From positions 1 through 54,856 of the forward strand of contig JABDJK010000067.1 of the NCBI GenBank assembly GCA_013002535.1: a DNA stretch of 54,856 bases. Direction: 5' to 3'. The notes under the pieces are model-generated. The model was given only the letters and a program-made list of their open reading frames with translations. It did not search any database and had not been told where the DNA came from. This document shows, one piece after another, positions 28,555 through 36,151 of the stretch. The position numbers and the translations under genes were made by a program. The stretch is from Hyphococcus sp. (GTDB lineage: Bacteria; Pseudomonadota; Alphaproteobacteria; Caulobacterales; Parvularculaceae). Position 1 is the stretch's first letter; each line of letters begins with the position of its first letter.

Positions 28555-29886
28555 ATGCCAATGAATAGCCGCAATATCCGCTTCGTGTTGTTCGGCATTG
28601 CGATCACATTTGCTGTGTTCGCCATTTTTTATGTTCTAAATCGCACAAAAGAGCCTGAGTTTGGCGACGACGCTTTCCTCGCGCCTGTTATTGCAATTGA
28701 ACTAACGGCGTTTGAGAACATCACCGGATGGGGTGACGACGCCTTAGAAGAAGCGCTGCCAGCCTTCTTGAATTCCTGCACCGTGCTTGGAAAGCGCGAT
28801 CCTGATGAGCCAGCAAACCGCAATGAAAATCTTGGTGAAATTCTGAAAGGGAAGACATTATCGGGCCGCGTTCAAGATTGGTTGGCGCCTTGTGATGCAG
28901 CTGAAGCGCTCACCGAGGTCTCCGGCAAAAGTGCGCGCTCATTTTTTGAGAGTAATTTCCAGCCAGTACACATACTCGCACAACGGACCCCAAAACCAGA
29001 TGGCCCGGCTAAAAACGAACCCACAAGGACATCGAAAAAGGGGAAGTTTACTGGATATTTTGAACCGTCCTATCCGGCTTCCCGCAACAAAACGGACGAA
29101 TTTGATACGCCGTTGTTCGCCCGTCCCGAAAATCTAGTCGATGTCGATCTTGGCGCCTTTCGCAAGGACCTTTCCGGCGAGCGCATCGCCGGGCGCCTCG
29201 AAGGAAACAAACTGGTCCCTTACCCTGATCGGACCAAAATCAACGAAGGCGAGATCGGCGATGTTGCCGAGGTATTGGCGTGGCTAAATCCGAATGATTT
29301 ATTCTTTCTTCAAATTCAGGGGTCGGGACGAATAGAATTTTCCGATGGTGCGGTAAAACGCGTCGGTTATGCCGGTCAGAATGGTCACAAATATACTGCG
29401 ATCGGACGCACGCTAGTTGAGCGCAATGTCATGCCGGTCAAGGACGTCTCAATGCAGTCGATCCGCGAATGGCTAGATAATGCTTCGCATTCGGACGCAC
29501 GCGAATTGAGAGAGGAAAATGCCTCCTATGTATTTTTTCAAGCGCTGGATCACCTCGACGCCAATGATGGCCCGCTGGGCGCTCAAGGCGTGCCGTTGAC
29601 GCCGCTGCGCAGCCTGGCGGTTGACCGGCGCTATCATATGCTAGGCGCGCCCATTTGGGTGTCTATTGACAGCGCTGATGATGATGCCGACGCAATCCGA
29701 AAACTGATGATTGCCCAGGATACCGGCGGCGCAATCCGCGGCCCGGTGCGCGGCGACTTTTTTTGGGGTGCTGGCGCCGACGCGGCGGCGCGGGCCGGCG
29801 AGATGAATGCGGAAGGCGAAATGATTGTTTTTTTGCCAAAGGGCCTGGCGGCAAAACTCACCGGCTCTGAAACGCCAGCGCCATGA
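28555..29886 (+). CDS. mltA: Membrane-bound lytic murein transglycosylase A
   Basis: Protein of 443 residues that cleaves peptidoglycan glycan strands to 1,6-anhydro-muropeptides. An N-terminal membrane helix (about 8-26, no lipobox) is followed by the MltA domain with KGKFTGYFEPSYPAS, PYPDRTKI, and DLFFLQIQGSGRIEF, then the C-terminal 3D domain with VDRRYHMLGAPIWVS, QDTGGAIRGPVRGDFFWG. ATG 28555 or 28561 could be the start. It is coupled to the Smr gene by a 4-base overlap. Anchoring by an uncleaved helix instead of a lipid is usual in this class. Confidence 0.93.
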   Translation: MPMNSRNIRFVLFGIAITFAVFAIFYVLNRTKEPEFGDDAFLAPVIAIELTAFENITGWGDDALEEALPAFLNSCTVLGKRDPDEPANRNENLGEILKGKTLSGRVQDWLAPCDAAEALTEVSGKSARSFFESNFQPVHILAQRTPKPDGPAKNEPTRTSKKGKFTGYFEPSYPASRNKTDEFDTPLFARPENLVDVDLGAFRKDLSGERIAGRLEGNKLVPYPDRTKINEGEIGDVAEVLAWLNPNDLFFLQIQGSGRIEFSDGAVKRVGYAGQNGHKYTAIGRTLVERNVMPVKDVSMQSIREWLDNASHSDARELREENASYVFFQALDHLDANDGPLGAQGVPLTPLRSLAVDRRYHMLGAPIWVSIDSADDDADAIRKLMIAQDTGGAIRGPVRGDFFWGAGADAAARAGEMNAEGEMIVFLPKGLAAKLTGSETPAP

Positions 29887-30422
29887 AATCCCGCACCCTC
29901 ACTGAAAACGAATGGGAATTGTGGCGGCGCACCACGAAGGATGTCGCGCCAATGCAGAACGGCGGCGGCGATACGGTGACGCGTCGAAGCGTCAACCCAA
30001 TTGTTCGAAATCCTGCTGCGACCATGAAACGCGAAACGCTCGGCCAACACAATGTTTTCCAGTCGGGAGACCCGCGTTCTGATCGTCGTGCGGGCCGTGG
30101 CAGAATCGCAATTGACGCAGAATTGGATTTGCACGGACACACGGTCTCAACAGCCGAAGCTACGCTTTACGGCTTTTTACTGAACGCAAAATCCAGAAAG
30201 TATCGATGCGTCTTGGTTATTACAGGAAAGGGGCGAGGCGATGCGCGCAGTTTTAACAACGAGCCGCCGCGGGGTGTTCTGCATCGGCAGGTGCGCAACT
30301 GGATTAACAGCGAGCCCTTTCGCCAGCACATTGCGCGGGCAGCACCCGCCCACCGGCGGCATGGCGGCGACGGCGCCGTCTATATTTTCTTGAAATCCAG
30401 CAGCGGAAGAACGGTTTCTTAG
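29883..30422 (+). CDS. Smr-domain protein
   Basis: Protein of 179 residues. The N-terminal half is polar and likely unstructured; the Smr domain covers about 78-175 with the signatures AELDLHGHTVSTAEATL (LDLHG motif) and VLVITGKGRG (xGxGxG motif; the first residue of the usual HGxG motif is Thr here), ending VYIFLK. Smr domains act as nucleases or bind branched DNA or stalled ribosomes, depending on the family member. ATGA overlap with mltA is part of the conserved alphaproteobacterial order mltA-smr. Confidence 0.9.
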   Translation: MKSRTLTENEWELWRRTTKDVAPMQNGGGDTVTRRSVNPIVRNPAATMKRETLGQHNVFQSGDPRSDRRAGRGRIAIDAELDLHGHTVSTAEATLYGFLLNAKSRKYRCVLVITGKGRGDARSFNNEPPRGVLHRQVRNWINSEPFRQHIARAAPAHRRHGGDGAVYIFLKSSSGRTVS

Positions 30423-30433
30423 AGCTAACGGAT

Positions 30434-32308
30434 TTATCCGTTGAGAATCACTTTCCAGACGACAAACCAAACCAAGAACGCCGGCAAAATGTAGAACGCA
30501 GCAATTCGCGAGAAGCGCACAAACATCGTCTCAACAAAATCCGCGGTCCATTCGGAAACAGCTTCGCTCCACCAACGACGGGCTTTGTGTTTTGGCAGTT
30601 GCGCCTGCTCCGGCTCAAACGGAACGGCCGCGAGCACGGTAACGCCGCGGTTCTTCCAGCGCTGGAATACTTTCTTCAGCGCGCCATTTACGACCGATCC
30701 TCGCAACCGGCGAAAAAGGGCCGAGAATGGTCCGTAACTGAAATCTTCCGGGTCAAACTCAACATCAAGCACCATGGCGGACGGCGCATTGCGCCCGCTG
30801 TCCTCATCCATGCGAACAACCGCATGACGAACGCCATAATTACGCAAGAAATTTTCAACGTCGCCGATCGATGCTGCAGTCCCATCGCGTTTGAACCGGA
30901 ACATCACTCTGACGCCCTGGTGGCCGCGCCCCTGGGCCGACATGAATATGAATGCGGCAACCAAGATCATCGCCGCTAAAACAAGCGCGCCCTGCGCCGT
31001 CAATGAAGCAGGCAACCACGATAAGGCGTTGGCGTCGACTACGCCGGAAATCGCGCCGACCCCATAAAGTCCCACAAGAGCAAGCATAATCGCCGCGGCA
31101 GTCGCCGCAAATCCGAGAATTTTCAAGACGCCGGCGCCGAGCGACATATTGCTGCCCGCGATCGCATTCATGCGCTGGTACCAATAGCGCGTGCGCGCAT
31201 CCGTGGTGCGATATCGGTCCTCGTAAAGGCTGTGATCGGGATTGTTTTCAACGACGAGAAAACGCGTTTTGTCGGGGGCAGCGTCGTCGAAATTATGATC
31301 GATGATCACATAGTCAGAAGACCGCATGGCGACTTCATACGGCAGCACCATGCCGAATAAATTACCTGCCTGACTTTCCGCGCCCAACGAAGAAAAGAAG
31401 CGCGTTTCACCGGTTACGGGGTCAAAGAAAGTATTTGTTTGGCGCGATTGATTCGTCGTTCCGCGCGCAAGTTTCGCCAGCTCACGATGCGGCTCAATCA
31501 TTTGCGCTGTTTCCTGAACCTCAACGCCGATGGCGCGCAACCCGTCTAGCTTTGATTTGCAGCGCCGCGCTGCTTCAGGACCGGCGAAGACACGGTCGAT
31601 GCGGTCGCGAATGAGTTTTTGATCAGACATGTCGATCGGCAGGCCCGCACGCGGCATTTCTGCTTCGTAAGACTTGCCGGGTTCATTGCCGCTTGTAGCG
31701 TCCGTTTCACCCCAAGCCTTGCGCATGCGCCGTTGCAGCGCAGAGAACCCGGTTCCCGGATGCGATGATTGGATCAGATCGTAAAGTTGGGATTCGTGGA
31801 CCGCGAGGCACAGATTGTCTGTCGCCTCAACCTGCTCAACACCAAGAATGGTAAAGAGGCTGCCAATGGCGCGCAGGGTTTCAAAATCATAGCCCGCATA
31901 CGGATTATAAAATGGCACCAGCGCAAAATCTGCGGTCTGGCTTTTGACCGCCATGAGCGCCTGCTCTTTGGTGCGCAAGGGTTGCGGGACATAGGAATTA
32001 TAATCAAATCGGCTGTTTTTGCTCGCGTCGTCATATTCGCGCTCGGTCTGAGCGCCGGTGTAGGTTACACCTCCGTCAGCGACCGTTTTTTCCCGGCGGG
32101 CGCGCTCAATGAAGCGCTCAGTCGCCTGGTAGCCGAACCCGAATTCCTCGCCTGTAAAGGCAACCCGCGCGGGTTGTTTTGGCTTCCCGCGAAACAGTGA
32201 TTTCTTGGGGCTATCCTCAATTTTGGTGGCGAAACGCGGATCCGCATCTTCGGCGAACGCCATCATTGATCGCCGCTTTACACTACTTCTTGCTGCACCG
32301 TCAGCCAT
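30434..32308 (-). CDS. Membrane protein with prephenate-dehydratase-like and ACT-like domains
   Basis: Protein of about 624 residues. The first 380 residues contain pieces in the order of a prephenate dehydratase fold: VAFTGEEFGFGYQATERF (49-67), EQALMAVKSQTADFALVPFYNPYAGYDFETL (115-145) and, after a large insert (about 185-330), KTRFLVVE with the catalytic TRF motif at 348-350. Two membrane helices follow (about 394-419 and 437-457), then a soluble region (VMFRFKRDGTAASIGDVENFLRN ... VLDVEF, 468-518) that resembles an ACT domain, and a final helix (about 600-622). Start uncertain: GTG 32323 or ATG 32308. Activity is unproven. See findings. Confidence 0.6.
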   Translation of the reverse strand: MADGAARSSVKRRSMMAFAEDADPRFATKIEDSPKKSLFRGKPKQPARVAFTGEEFGFGYQATERFIERARREKTVADGGVTYTGAQTEREYDDASKNSRFDYNSYVPQPLRTKEQALMAVKSQTADFALVPFYNPYAGYDFETLRAIGSLFTILGVEQVEATDNLCLAVHESQLYDLIQSSHPGTGFSALQRRMRKAWGETDATSGNEPGKSYEAEMPRAGLPIDMSDQKLIRDRIDRVFAGPEAARRCKSKLDGLRAIGVEVQETAQMIEPHRELAKLARGTTNQSRQTNTFFDPVTGETRFFSSLGAESQAGNLFGMVLPYEVAMRSSDYVIIDHNFDDAAPDKTRFLVVENNPDHSLYEDRYRTTDARTRYWYQRMNAIAGSNMSLGAGVLKILGFAATAAAIMLALVGLYGVGAISGVVDANALSWLPASLTAQGALVLAAMILVAAFIFMSAQGRGHQGVRVMFRFKRDGTAASIGDVENFLRNYGVRHAVVRMDEDSGRNAPSAMVLDVEFDPEDFSYGPFSALFRRLRGSVVNGALKKVFQRWKNRGVTVLAAVPFEPEQAQLPKHKARRWWSEAVSEWTADFVETMFVRFSRIAAFYILPAFLVWFVVWKVILNG

Positions 32309-32549: not shown

Positions 32550-33857
32550 TTAGAGAATATAGCGGGAAAGATCGGCGTTTTTAGAGATTTCGCCAATGCG
32601 CTCTTCAACATACCCGGCGTCGATTTTGACGGTTTCGCCGGACCGATCTGCGGCAGTGAATGATATGTCATCCAGCACAGTTTCCATGATAGTCGCTAAA
32701 CGCCTTGCGCCGATATTTTCGATGCCGGCGTTCACTTCTGCTGCTGCGTCGGCGAGGGCGTCGGCAGCGTCGTCAGAGAATTCTATTGAAACGCCTTCAG
32801 TCTCCATCAGCGCCGTATATTGCTTGATAAGGCTCGCTTCCGGTTCAACCAGAATGCGTCGCAGATCGTCGCGCGACAGAGCGTCAAGCTCAACACGTAT
32901 GGGCAAGCGTCCTTGCAATTCGGGCAATAAATCAGCCGGCTTAGAAAGGTGAAACGCACCTGAAGCAATAAACAAAATATGGTCAGTTTTTACTGGCCCG
33001 TATTTTGTCGCTACGGTCGCGCCTTCAATTAAAGGCAACAAATCGCGTTGCACGCCTTCCCGGGAAACATCGCCGCTGCCGCGATCGGCGCCGCGGGCGA
33101 TTTTGTCGATTTCATCGAGAAATACGATCCCGTCATTTTGCGCCAGTTCAAGCGCGTCTTTTATGAGCGCATCTTCATCGAGAAGATTGTCAGACTCATC
33201 CGCAATCAACGGCTCATAAGCGTCCTTCACTCTGATCCGGCGTTTCGATTGCGGCGCCTGAAACGCTTTTCCAAACATATCGGACAAATTGATCATGCTC
33301 ATTTGCGAGCCGGGCATGCCTGGTATTTCAAACGCCGGCATACCGCTCTGGCTGTCGCGCACTTCAATTTCGATTTCTTTATCGTCGAGTTCGCCGTCGC
33401 GCAGCTTTTGCCGGAACCGCTCGCGCGCAGCCTCACCGCCGCCTTCGCCAACGAGGGCGTCAATTACGCGCTCTTCCGCCGCACCGTGGGCGGCAGACCG
33501 GACCTCTTCGCGTTTTCGTTCGCGCACAAGACCAATCGCAATCTCGACAAGGTCGCGAACAATTGAATCAACGTCGCGCCCGACATAGCCGACCTCGGTG
33601 AATTTAGTAGCTTCGATCTTGATAAACGGCGCCCCGGCAAGCCGCGACAAACGGCGCGAAATCTCGGTTTTGCCAACTCCAGTGGGGCCAATCATCAAGA
33701 TATTTTTCGGCGTGATTTCTTCGCGAAGGCCTTCTTCGACGCGTTGGCGGCGCCAGCGATTGCGCAACGCGATCGCAACAGCACGCTTCGCCGCCTTTTG
33801 GCCGACAATAAATCTATCGAGTTCAGAGACGATCTCGCGGGGAGAAAAATCCGTCAT
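32550..33857 (-). CDS. hslU: HslU ATPase of the HslVU protease
   Basis: AAA+ unfoldase of 435 residues that feeds substrates to the HslV chamber. The N-terminus [20 protein letters not shown], Walker [15 protein letters not shown], the [16 protein letters not shown] pore/Walker region, the acidic I domain (about 110-220), Walker [12 protein letters not shown] and the C-terminal YIL (which inserts into HslV) are all present. An upstream in-frame extension reads through a hairpin and is rejected. hslV is not adjacent: three Tad-type genes and a terminator-like hairpin lie between them. Confidence 0.95.
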
Positions 33858-33865
33858 AAGGGAAT

Positions 33866-33908
33866 CCCAAAAAGAATTGCACCCGCCATGTAGACAAGGC
33901 GGGTGCAA
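33866..33908 (-). terminator. Hairpin terminator or leader just before hslU
   Basis: A perfect 11-bp inverted repeat TTGCACCCGCC / GGCGGGTGCAA (33877-33887 with 33898-33908), loop of 10, is followed on the minus strand by TTCTTTTT. It ends the Tad-gene transcript, 20 bases before the hslU start, so hslU mRNA must either read through it or begin very near its own start. Confidence 0.75.
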
Positions 33909-33946
33909 AACGGAAGGGGTCAAAAAGGACGGAATTCTTGCGGTGT

Positions 33947-34366
33947 TTACGTGCGCTCATACATCGGCGCGTATCGGGTAGCTGTTATGGTGACGCCGCT
34001 GAAGTGGCTGCCAAAATTGATTAGATATTCGAAATCGTAGCTGATTTCGATTTTCTTGAAATCGTGACTGGCTATGGTTTCATTTGTCAGCGTGATGGTG
34101 ACGTCGTTGGGGTCAAAGTCATCGAGCTTATCCAGAATTTTTGTCTCAAGTTCGGAATCGGTGGCCGACGGATTCATCGCCAGTGATCGCGAGGCAAGCG
34201 CCGCAGCCGCCGCGACCCTATTCTTGTCATACATGCCGCGGCCGAGCTCGAATGTTCCAAAAACCACCGCGAAGAATAAGGGTGCGATTAGCGCGAATTC
34301 CAGCGCCGGCGTGCCTTTTCGGTCGCTCGGAAAATTACTGAAAATTCTTTTCAGGTTTTCATTCAT
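33947..34366 (-). CDS. TadE-like pseudopilin
   Basis: Protein of 139 residues. The N-terminal prepilin-like segment [27 protein letters not shown] is the TadE signature: a Glu-containing hydrophobic helix after a basic stretch, processed by the TadV peptidase. A soluble C-terminal part follows. It is the last gene of a three-gene Tad-type group (TadG, TadE, TadE) between hslV and hslU. TadE and TadF proteins are minor pilins of Flp pili. No tad secretion genes are in the window. Confidence 0.88.
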
Positions 34367-34383
34367 TTCAAATGCGCCTTGCT

Positions 34384-34860
34384 TTAGCGGACCTGCACGT
34401 TGATTTGGGTCGAGAGTGCAATATCGGGCAGAATGATCGCTTCATAGGTCTTGTCTGCAGCAACCTTATAATAGATCGACGGCGGCATATCGTTTGAACA
34501 CAACGTCGCCGTACAAGTTACAGTCACACCGGGATTGTCAGTGCACTCGCACCATTTGTTTACAGCAACATTCGGCCGTTGACTTGATTCAGCATCGCCC
34601 GGCGTATCGCTGTAGGTTCCGGTCGCGGCCGCGATGACCAGGTTCTTGACCGTGTCCTCATCGCTGACGTCTTTCATCACAAATTCCGCGCCAGAGCGAA
34701 CCGCCTGATCAAGGTTCATCCGTGCGTTAATCGCGAGACCAATATCAGTCATTGTGATGAGCGCGAACATCATCATTGGCGCGCCAACGGCAAATTCAAC
34801 GGCGGCTGCGCCGTCGCGATTTCGGAGAAGACGCATAGTCTGTCGAAGAAAATTTTTCAT
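34384..34860 (-). CDS. TadE/TadF-like pseudopilin
   Basis: Protein of 158 residues with the same layout: basic N-terminus RLLRNRDGAAAVEFAVGAPMMMFALITMTDIGL, a hydrophobic helix with the conserved Glu, and a soluble domain containing Cys residues (NKWCECTD; CTATLCSND) that could form disulfides. ATG 34860 has GTAGGAG upstream; an earlier start would overlap the TadG gene. It lies 17 bases before the second TadE gene, and 10 bases after the TadG stop, so these are one transcript. Confidence 0.85.
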   Translation of the reverse strand: MKNFLRQTMRLLRNRDGAAAVEFAVGAPMMMFALITMTDIGLAINARMNLDQAVRSGAEFVMKDVSDEDTVKNLVIAAATGTYSDTPGDAESSQRPNVAVNKWCECTDNPGVTVTCTATLCSNDMPPSIYYKVAADKTYEAIILPDIALSTQINVQVR

Positions 34861-34870
34861 GGTCCGTCTC

Positions 34871-36151
34871 CTACTCAACAATGTTGATGGATTGCGCAGT
34901 ACGAATTTCTGATGTGCCAGAGGCCGAACAGTCGGTGTCGAAGTCGGAATTGCCGGAAAATTTCACAGTGTAGCCAATGATCTGGGTGCATTCGCCGGCC
35001 GATCCGCCAGTCGTACTGCCGGTAAACTCGATGTCTGATTTCGCGCCGTAAACGGCGCCAACCACAGAAAATCCTGATCCGCCATTGAATTTATGTGAGC
35101 CCGTATCTGCGCGATCGAACCAGATAACGATTCCGGCGTAGTTGCCCGAGGTCGGCGCAGATAAATCGACATCCGCACTGCCATTGACGTCAATTGTCGC
35201 GCCGCCCGTGAAGAAAAGAGTGACATCATCACCGGATAAATCAGCGCCTGCGTTTATTTTCCATGACCCGCCGTCGAGGATATAGACACCCGGATCCAAT
35301 TCGACGGTGCCTTTGATCTGCCCGCCACCGCAATAAGTTCCCGGCGATGGTTTTCCTTTACCGCTTTTCTTGGTCCAGGCGTTGTTGTTCGGGGCGCACG
35401 AACCCGCAGTTGGCTGCACCCGATCACGGTAGGGGTCAGCGGTGACTGGGCCATTTTCGATCGGTGTAGCGCAATCAATGTCCAGGTTTGATGTCGTAGA
35501 AACGCCGCCTACTGCGGATAGACAGTCGGCCTCCAATTGCGCGGCGCCTTGCATATTAATTGCGTCTGATGCGATAGAATTCGCAGCGACATCGCAGCCG
35601 TCAAGGTCAACGTCGGTGCTGCCTTGCACATGCACCGCGCCGCTTGCCGTCGGAGAAAGCGCCAAAACGCAAGCCGGGCGGCCATTATTGACAAGCGCGG
35701 TAGCGTCGACCGTGACGTAAACTGGGTCGTTGATAATCAGCTTTGAAAACTTCCGCTCAATCGGCTGGCGCAGGGTCAGGTGCAACGCGTTTGGATCGCC
35801 AGCATAAGCGCCGGAAACAGGCGGCGACGCCAGCGTCAGTGTTCCGGTCGCGGTGTCATAGCCGCCCTCACCAGCGATCAAGGTCGCGGCGGTTTCAAGT
35901 TCTGATTCCGGGCGGCCTGAACGTAACTGTGTGCCAGCAGCAAACGCAGCGGTGTCAGCGGCGTTCTGCAATTTGCGCTTCGACAGCTCCCAACCGCCGA
36001 CTTCCGACCCATAGGCAAGGCCGGCGATCATCACCGGCGTCAGGATCGCAAACATGATGGCGGTCGAGCCTTTACGATCTTTGGCAAGGTTTTTGGCCTT
36101 GCGCTGAACCGCGCTGCAAACGGTTTTTACCGAACGATATGCCATATCCAT
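34871..36151 (-). CDS. TadG-like protein with beta-rich C-terminus
   Basis: Protein of 426 residues. The N-terminal TadG module KGSTAIMFAILTPVMIAGLAYGSEVG...LQNAADTAAFAAG (about 28-75) is clear. Most TadG proteins carry a von Willebrand A domain; here the rest is instead a Gly/Asp/Ser-rich beta-strand region with regular 'GS-x-D-V-D' and 'GNSDFDTDCSASG' stretches and several Cys, resembling a beta-helix-like repeat. GAAGGTGAC precedes ATG 36151. It heads the transcript with the two TadE genes. The lack of a vWA motif (no DxSxS) is by eye. Confidence 0.82.
   Translation of the reverse strand: MDMAYRSVKTVCSAVQRKAKNLAKDRKGSTAIMFAILTPVMIAGLAYGSEVGGWELSKRKLQNAADTAAFAAGTQLRSGRPESELETAATLIAGEGGYDTATGTLTLASPPVSGAYAGDPNALHLTLRQPIERKFSKLIINDPVYVTVDATALVNNGRPACVLALSPTASGAVHVQGSTDVDLDGCDVAANSIASDAINMQGAAQLEADCLSAVGGVSTTSNLDIDCATPIENGPVTADPYRDRVQPTAGSCAPNNNAWTKKSGKGKPSPGTYCGGGQIKGTVELDPGVYILDGGSWKINAGADLSGDDVTLFFTGGATIDVNGSADVDLSAPTSGNYAGIVIWFDRADTGSHKFNGGSGFSVVGAVYGAKSDIEFTGSTTGGSAGECTQIIGYTVKFSGNSDFDTDCSASGTSEIRTAQSINIVE

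Follow-up and report, generated by a model that had tools for sequence, protein, structure and literature searches.

A conserved PDT-ACT protein of Parvularculaceae with predicted membrane segments and a largely replaced active site

Results

A stretch of 54,856 nucleotides from Hyphococcus sp., a member of the Parvularculaceae (the whole stretch is here referred to as the window), encodes a 624-amino-acid protein, X, whose fold and architecture are firm: a complete prephenate dehydratase (PDT) fold, a predicted transmembrane (TM) hairpin, an ACT fold, and a predicted C-terminal TM anchor (Table 1). PDT-ACT proteins are soluble, feedback-regulated enzymes. We give an even chance to the reading that X is a PheA-type PDT-ACT relative specific to this lineage, that it was moved to the inner membrane, and that it serves as a pseudo-PDT that binds a ligand or partner, i.e., as a sensor or regulator. 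The original prediction for this gene, a PDT-type domain parted from an ACT-type domain by two membrane helices and followed by a last helix, was confirmed by profile, hhalign, structure model, and hydropathy; its interpretation as a membrane-bound aromatic-amino-acid sensor or a diverged enzyme found partial support.

The X profile and alignment (A3) comprise 48 of 54 distinct homologues. PF00800 (PDT) was the sole Pfam match of X, covering residues 105-174 at 25.3 bits, narrowly above the cut-off of 25.2, and it was matched by 44 of the 48 members at E up to 1. A phmmer search of PDB with the window protein as lone query gave no match. With E up to 10, the A3 profile matched three PDB sequences, each a prephenate dehydratase (6.4e-4, 0.003, and 0.017); these matches pair the N-terminal stretch with a TRF stretch in unchanged order, and the TRF stretches by themselves are not significant. 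In hhalign, A3 aligned to 23 PheA sequences with 97% probability over 188 columns, and TRF fell on TRF, as it did in the joint alignment. Profile, hhalign, structure comparison, and alignment thus agree on a PDT fold whose two halves follow in the right order, with TRF at its proper position. TRF lies at the active-site position, as had been proposed, and the model and profile searches gave no sign of a missing PDT fold or of a TRF elsewhere. The large insert described for residues 185-330 consists of two family-specific inserts (residues ~175-233 and ~285-314) with PDT core between them; in the structure model, residues 196-224 of the first have a pLDDT (predicted local distance difference test) score below 50, and the second forms strands at residues 290-296 and 301-307.

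After the PDT domain, the model and structure comparison revealed a beta-alpha-beta-beta-alpha-beta fold, and VIA alignments of the X model to PDT-ACT chains extend through residue 563-600. The ACT part, noted earlier as a strand set at residues 468-518, extends over residues ~463-566. None of the Pfam ACT models matched X by sequence, neither for the window protein nor for the 48 members.

Hydropathy identified three hydrophobic segments in the window protein, the first two of which form the hairpin (helices at residues 390-419 and 438-456 in the model). The hairpin was found in 31 of the 48 rows as a stretch of 78-89 residues, and the terminal segment, a predicted tail anchor, has a hydropathy of 2.14 in the window protein and above 1.5 in 44 of the 48 rows. 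In the 31 hairpin rows, the inter-helix loop carries at most one basic residue, while the 20 residues after TM2 carry three to seven. Since two helices stand between them and the loop is nearly free of basic residues, both soluble domains of X are predicted to be cytoplasmic. In the clade of the window protein the hairpin adds two helices, so that the term "single anchor" suits hairpin-less members only.

Active-site positions were tallied for 48 X rows and 23 PheA rows in a MAFFT joint alignment, in which the PDT columns alone were used because the alignment misplaces the PheA ACT part against the X hairpin; statements on the X cleft are drawn from this alignment. Apart from TRF, most of the tallied positions differ: the Ser of GAYS (0/48 in X versus 22/23 in PheA), the Glu of ENS (5/48 versus 23/23), the Arg of GRV (0/48 versus 23/23), the Ser and His of SH (0/48 each versus 22/23 and 23/23), and the Gln of xQC (1/48 versus 23/23). 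All six residues are replaced in the window protein, and the replacements across the 48 members include Ser to Gly, Arg to Tyr, Ser to Ala, and Gln to Arg. Other positions are near-invariant in X, i.e., R289 (47/48), R275, Q230, and S306 (46/48 each), and Y140 (44/48); of the hairpin-shaped insert 2, T293 is near-invariant as well (Table 1). The Ser-His and Gln positions are ones that we take to belong to the PDT active site, and Zhang and co-workers reportedly described, in 2000, roles of Ser208, Gln215, and Thr278 in the E. coli enzyme. For the remaining Ser, Arg, Thr, and Glu, importance for the cleft was taken from the available part of PMC8192741 on the PDT-type protein GqqA and mapped onto X by alignment. 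There, Tyr16, Ser17, Arg62, Phe128, and Thr174 of GqqA are placed near a docked ligand, and E. coli E159 (GqqA E55) is named as important for substrate binding. In the alignment, Ser17 and Arg62 correspond to Gly59 and Tyr140 of X, and the counterpart of Thr174 is kept.

X is probably not the prephenate dehydratase of this genome, because a normal PheA is encoded elsewhere (G000:C6), scoring 443 bits against an NCBIfam cut-off of 359. X itself did not reach the cut-off of the NCBIfam PheA models NF008866 (14.8 versus 359 bits) and NF008865 (13.5 versus 219 bits); pucB, its best NCBIfam match by E-value (0.01), was rejected as chance-level. PheA-type PDT occurs in 58 of the 62 genomes of the GTDB family of the window; 59 have a PF00800 match, that of G041 being X itself. 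In a tree, X and PheA are separate with support 100. The deepest X clade has the order PDT-ACT-tail anchor without a hairpin, and the hairpin label requires at least two changes on the tree, which was built by a quick method and has long branches, so that where the hairpin was gained or lost around genus code g2 is uncertain.

Within the family, X was detected in 56 of the 62 genomes (that of the window included) and in 39 of the 42 of good quality. Named contigs with matches comprise three of Marinicaulis, one of Parvularcula, and three of unassigned Alphaproteobacteria, four being listed as Parvularculaceae; the named strain Marinicaulis flavus SY-3-19 has an X member. Among the six genomes without a match, G004 and G045 also lack a full hslU match, so that their assemblies may not include the locus; the hslU gene of G016 stops 74 bases from the contig end, and in G061 the contig continues for ~2.2 kb after hslU without X. 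G050 and G055 are near-complete, keep hslU, and have no X. Profile searches covered partial, possibly overlapping samples of 398 genomes of the order (336 in other families), 385 of the class, and 398 of the phylum. Outside the family, X was not recognised in these samples, which gave only short matches (E 5e-6 to 9e-4) in two, four, and five genomes, respectively. The four weak matches of the class sample were rejected as X, as their loci carry a normal PheA, and the remaining seven were taken for PheA. Two family genomes (G040, G035) have a second, shorter X copy at another locus (L079:4010-5254, L080:2685-3899), which lacks the inserts and the hairpin and is 48-49% identical to X in the ACT half and just 27-38% in the PDT pieces. 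In the open PMC literature, no paper was found that describes such a protein by its title or the start of its abstract.

X is under strong purifying selection and is a maintained protein, not a relic. In eight close pairs of relatives, the NG86 ratio of nonsynonymous to synonymous substitution rates (dN/dS) was 0.032-0.149, rough values given that dS exceeds 1 in four pairs, and in the seven of them that were analysed region by region, dN of the PDT part was 0.018-0.082. Mean pairwise identity among 29 hairpin members was 0.70-0.79 for the PDT parts and inserts, 0.73 for ACT, and 0.40 for the TM hairpin. In nine genomes (36 pairs), the PDT part was as conserved in X (0.744) as in PheA (0.713).

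Table 1. Features of X and of its neighbouring genes, with positions in the window
Feature	Position	Strand	Basis
Whole X gene (624-residue membrane-anchored PDT-ACT protein)	30434..32308	-	Open reading frame, ATG start, MADG N-terminus
PDT domain, first part (residues 45-174), VPFYNPYAGYD replacing VPIENS	31787..32176	-	PF00800 match, hhalign, model
Family-specific insert 1 (residues ~175-233), partly disordered in model	31610..31786	-	No PheA counterpart in joint alignment
PDT domain, second part (residues ~234-284), AGPEAARRC replacing SHxxALxQC, EPHR motif at 272-275	31457..31609	-	hhalign, alignment
Family-specific beta-hairpin insert 2 (residues ~285-314), near-invariant R289, T293, S306	31367..31456	-	Model, tally of 48 rows
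PDT domain, third part (residues 315-356), TRF triplet 348-350 (bases 31259-31267)	31241..31366	-	Profile match, hhalign, alignment
Predicted TM hairpin (residues ~390-458), two helices and a short loop almost without charge	30935..31141	-	Hydropathy, model
ACT-fold domain (residues 463-566), beta-alpha-beta-beta-alpha-beta	30611..30922	-	Model, VIA alignments to PDT-ACT chains
Predicted C-terminal TM tail anchor (residues ~597-622)	30443..30520	-	Hydropathy
hslU, upstream of X, conserved neighbour	32550..33923	-	Pfam AAA_2
smr-domain gene, convergent with X	29883..30422	+	Pfam Smr

The MADG start is common to 44 of the 54 X homologues. In 18 of the 20 tabulated X loci (not L084 and L098), representing eight genus codes, hslU lies in the same fetched stretch, mostly upstream and on the same strand. 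A convergent smr gene was found in 13 of the 20; of the seven loci without it, two have stretches cut short by contig ends (L006, L082), and the other five belong to genus code g8, in which the order differs. G065, which belongs to a different family, has hslV-hslU-smr-mltA-Tim44-SecB-DnaQ in one group, with hslU and smr 19 bases apart and no X, i.e., an empty site; smr was not detected in the fetched stretch of the other outside genomes (G062-G064). Judging from this one outside genome, X may have entered, or arisen in, the space separating hslU from smr, at or close to the family root. A promoter scan did not find a promoter-like site near X, and terminator-like sites, at 12 versus 6.7 in shuffles, were not informative.

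Other genes at these loci vary. In the window, hslU and hslV are separated by two TadE-like genes and one TadG-like gene of Flp pilus assembly (33947-36151); in relatives with both genes tabulated, hslV and hslU are closer, with none or one gene between them. Several relatives have genes for small, secreted-looking proteins of 218-235 amino acids with similar starts, located either in the hslV-hslU gap or immediately upstream of hslU (L005:3614-4321, L006:3645-4349, L093:7789-8445, L094:2162-2818). In genus code g8, a gene for a membrane protein that reads as hemolysin-III-like adjoins X (L122:5428-6156, L097:2979-3683); it adjoins hslU in G055, where X is absent.

Discussion

A kept fold, the loss of most of the old active-site residues, and strong conservation together suggest that X has taken on a new sensing, binding, or catalytic job. 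If X is a pseudo-PDT, its PDT cleft would no longer dehydrate prephenate and would bind another ligand or a partner protein on the cytoplasmic side, and the PDT and ACT domains, linked via the membrane hairpin, would work as a metabolite sensor or regulator bound to the membrane. A more specific version, which we hold only tentatively, is that of a membrane receptor derived from a biosynthetic enzyme: a substrate-binding-protein-like PDT cleft on the cytoplasmic face, rebuilt with Y140, R275, R289, and S306, may be coupled to ACT via the TM hairpin, and the relation of the domains would then be set by a ligand or by the membrane state.

Several observations speak against a pseudo-PDT with a sensor function. 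TRF, the best-known catalytic motif, is kept in X (T in 42, R in 39, and F in 46 of the 48 rows, versus 23/23 each in PheA). The Asn of ENS is found in 19 of the 48 rows, including the window protein (versus 23/23), and the DTAG column has Thr in 18 of 48 (versus 23/23), in a part where the alignment is unsure. GqqA is reported, in the available part of PMC8192741, to keep PDT activity with just two of the four key E. coli residues conserved; replaced residues are therefore no proof of lost activity in X. An ESRP-like motif, to which a ligand role in PDT-type ACT domains is ascribed in the accessible text of PMC10845154, is not recognisable in the ACT domain of the window protein, and identity in the ACT part is lower for X than for PheA (0.756 versus 0.878 in the same nine genomes and 36 pairs), so that phenylalanine sensing lacks direct support. 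X may still be the proposed aromatic-amino-acid sensor; our reading of the alignment places xRP at the ESRP position in eight of ten deepest-clade rows. As to the membrane, the topology was drawn from hydropathy and charge alone. Basic residues are few or absent among the 20 residues preceding TM1 in many rows, most rows show no net basic charge just ahead of TM3, and the terminal helix is weak in L040, L041, and L091 (1.2-1.4) and lacking in L042.

Alternatively, and with a probability that we put well under one half, X may be an enzyme of changed chemistry, with a PDT cleft adapted to a different substrate, which might be encountered at the membrane, and with ACT tuning the enzyme. Such a change would agree with a TRF retained while the new polar positions (Y140, R275, R289, S306) are near invariant, and the fold can take other reactions, as N-acyl-homoserine lactone acylase activity is reported for the soluble relative GqqA in the part of PMC8192741 at hand. 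However, two of the docked cleft residues of GqqA are not kept in X, and a catalytic set typical of another enzyme was not recognised, although no search aimed at one was made. That X has remained a prephenate or arogenate dehydratase, membrane bound beside PheA, is improbable: the complete PDT-ACT fold with TRF and the tolerance of GqqA would allow it, but nearly all members have replacements at the other active-site positions, most family genomes carry a separate PheA-type PDT, and the NCBIfam PheA scores remain far below their cut-offs. The "diverged enzyme" of the original prediction is weakened in this sense.

The recurrent hslU neighbour raises the possibility of a membrane adaptor or regulator of the HslUV protease, with PDT and ACT binding a client or metabolite. 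This, too, we regard as improbable, and slightly more so, since the neighbourhood alone speaks for it, HslU occurs without X in the four outside-family genomes (G062-G065) and in G050 and G055, and X and hslU are separated by a gene in L085, L090, and L096 and by ~3 kb in L097. Finally, most of the old active-site positions have been lost, as would happen in a decaying, functionless gene copy, but such decay is very improbable given the low dN/dS, the occurrence of X in 56 of the 62 genomes, its listed matched frames being free of stops, and a PDT part conserved like that of PheA.

If the pseudo-PDT or changed-chemistry reading is true, a membrane-anchored PDT-ACT protein conserved throughout a family would illustrate the conversion of a metabolic enzyme into a membrane sensor or into a new enzyme, and the deepest clade and the later hairpin represent steps that can be compared by experiment. 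Compared with monofunctional PheA (PDT-ACT; 6vh5, 2qmx, 2qmw), X differs by the predicted hairpin between the domains, the predicted anchor at the C-terminus, the two PDT inserts, replaced active-site positions, and the separate presence of PheA. GqqA (7am0, 7alz) is a PDT-type N-acyl-homoserine lactone acylase of 281 residues, for which the available text of PMC8192741 mentions no membrane parts and reports PDT activity by complementation; X has other residues at the positions of the GqqA cleft Ser and Arg. The highest Z to the X model (18.7 over 277 residues) was obtained for 3luy, a 326-residue chain from Bifidobacterium adolescentis that was deposited as a putative chorismate mutase and is called PDT in that text, and which matches without the hairpin stretch of X. 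The exported chorismate mutase-cyclohexadienyl dehydratase fusions described in PMC10520331, as far as its available part goes, resemble X in having phenylalanine-pathway domains in an unusual place; unlike X, they contain a cyclohexadienyl dehydratase, are exported, and have no membrane-tying hairpin between PDT and ACT.
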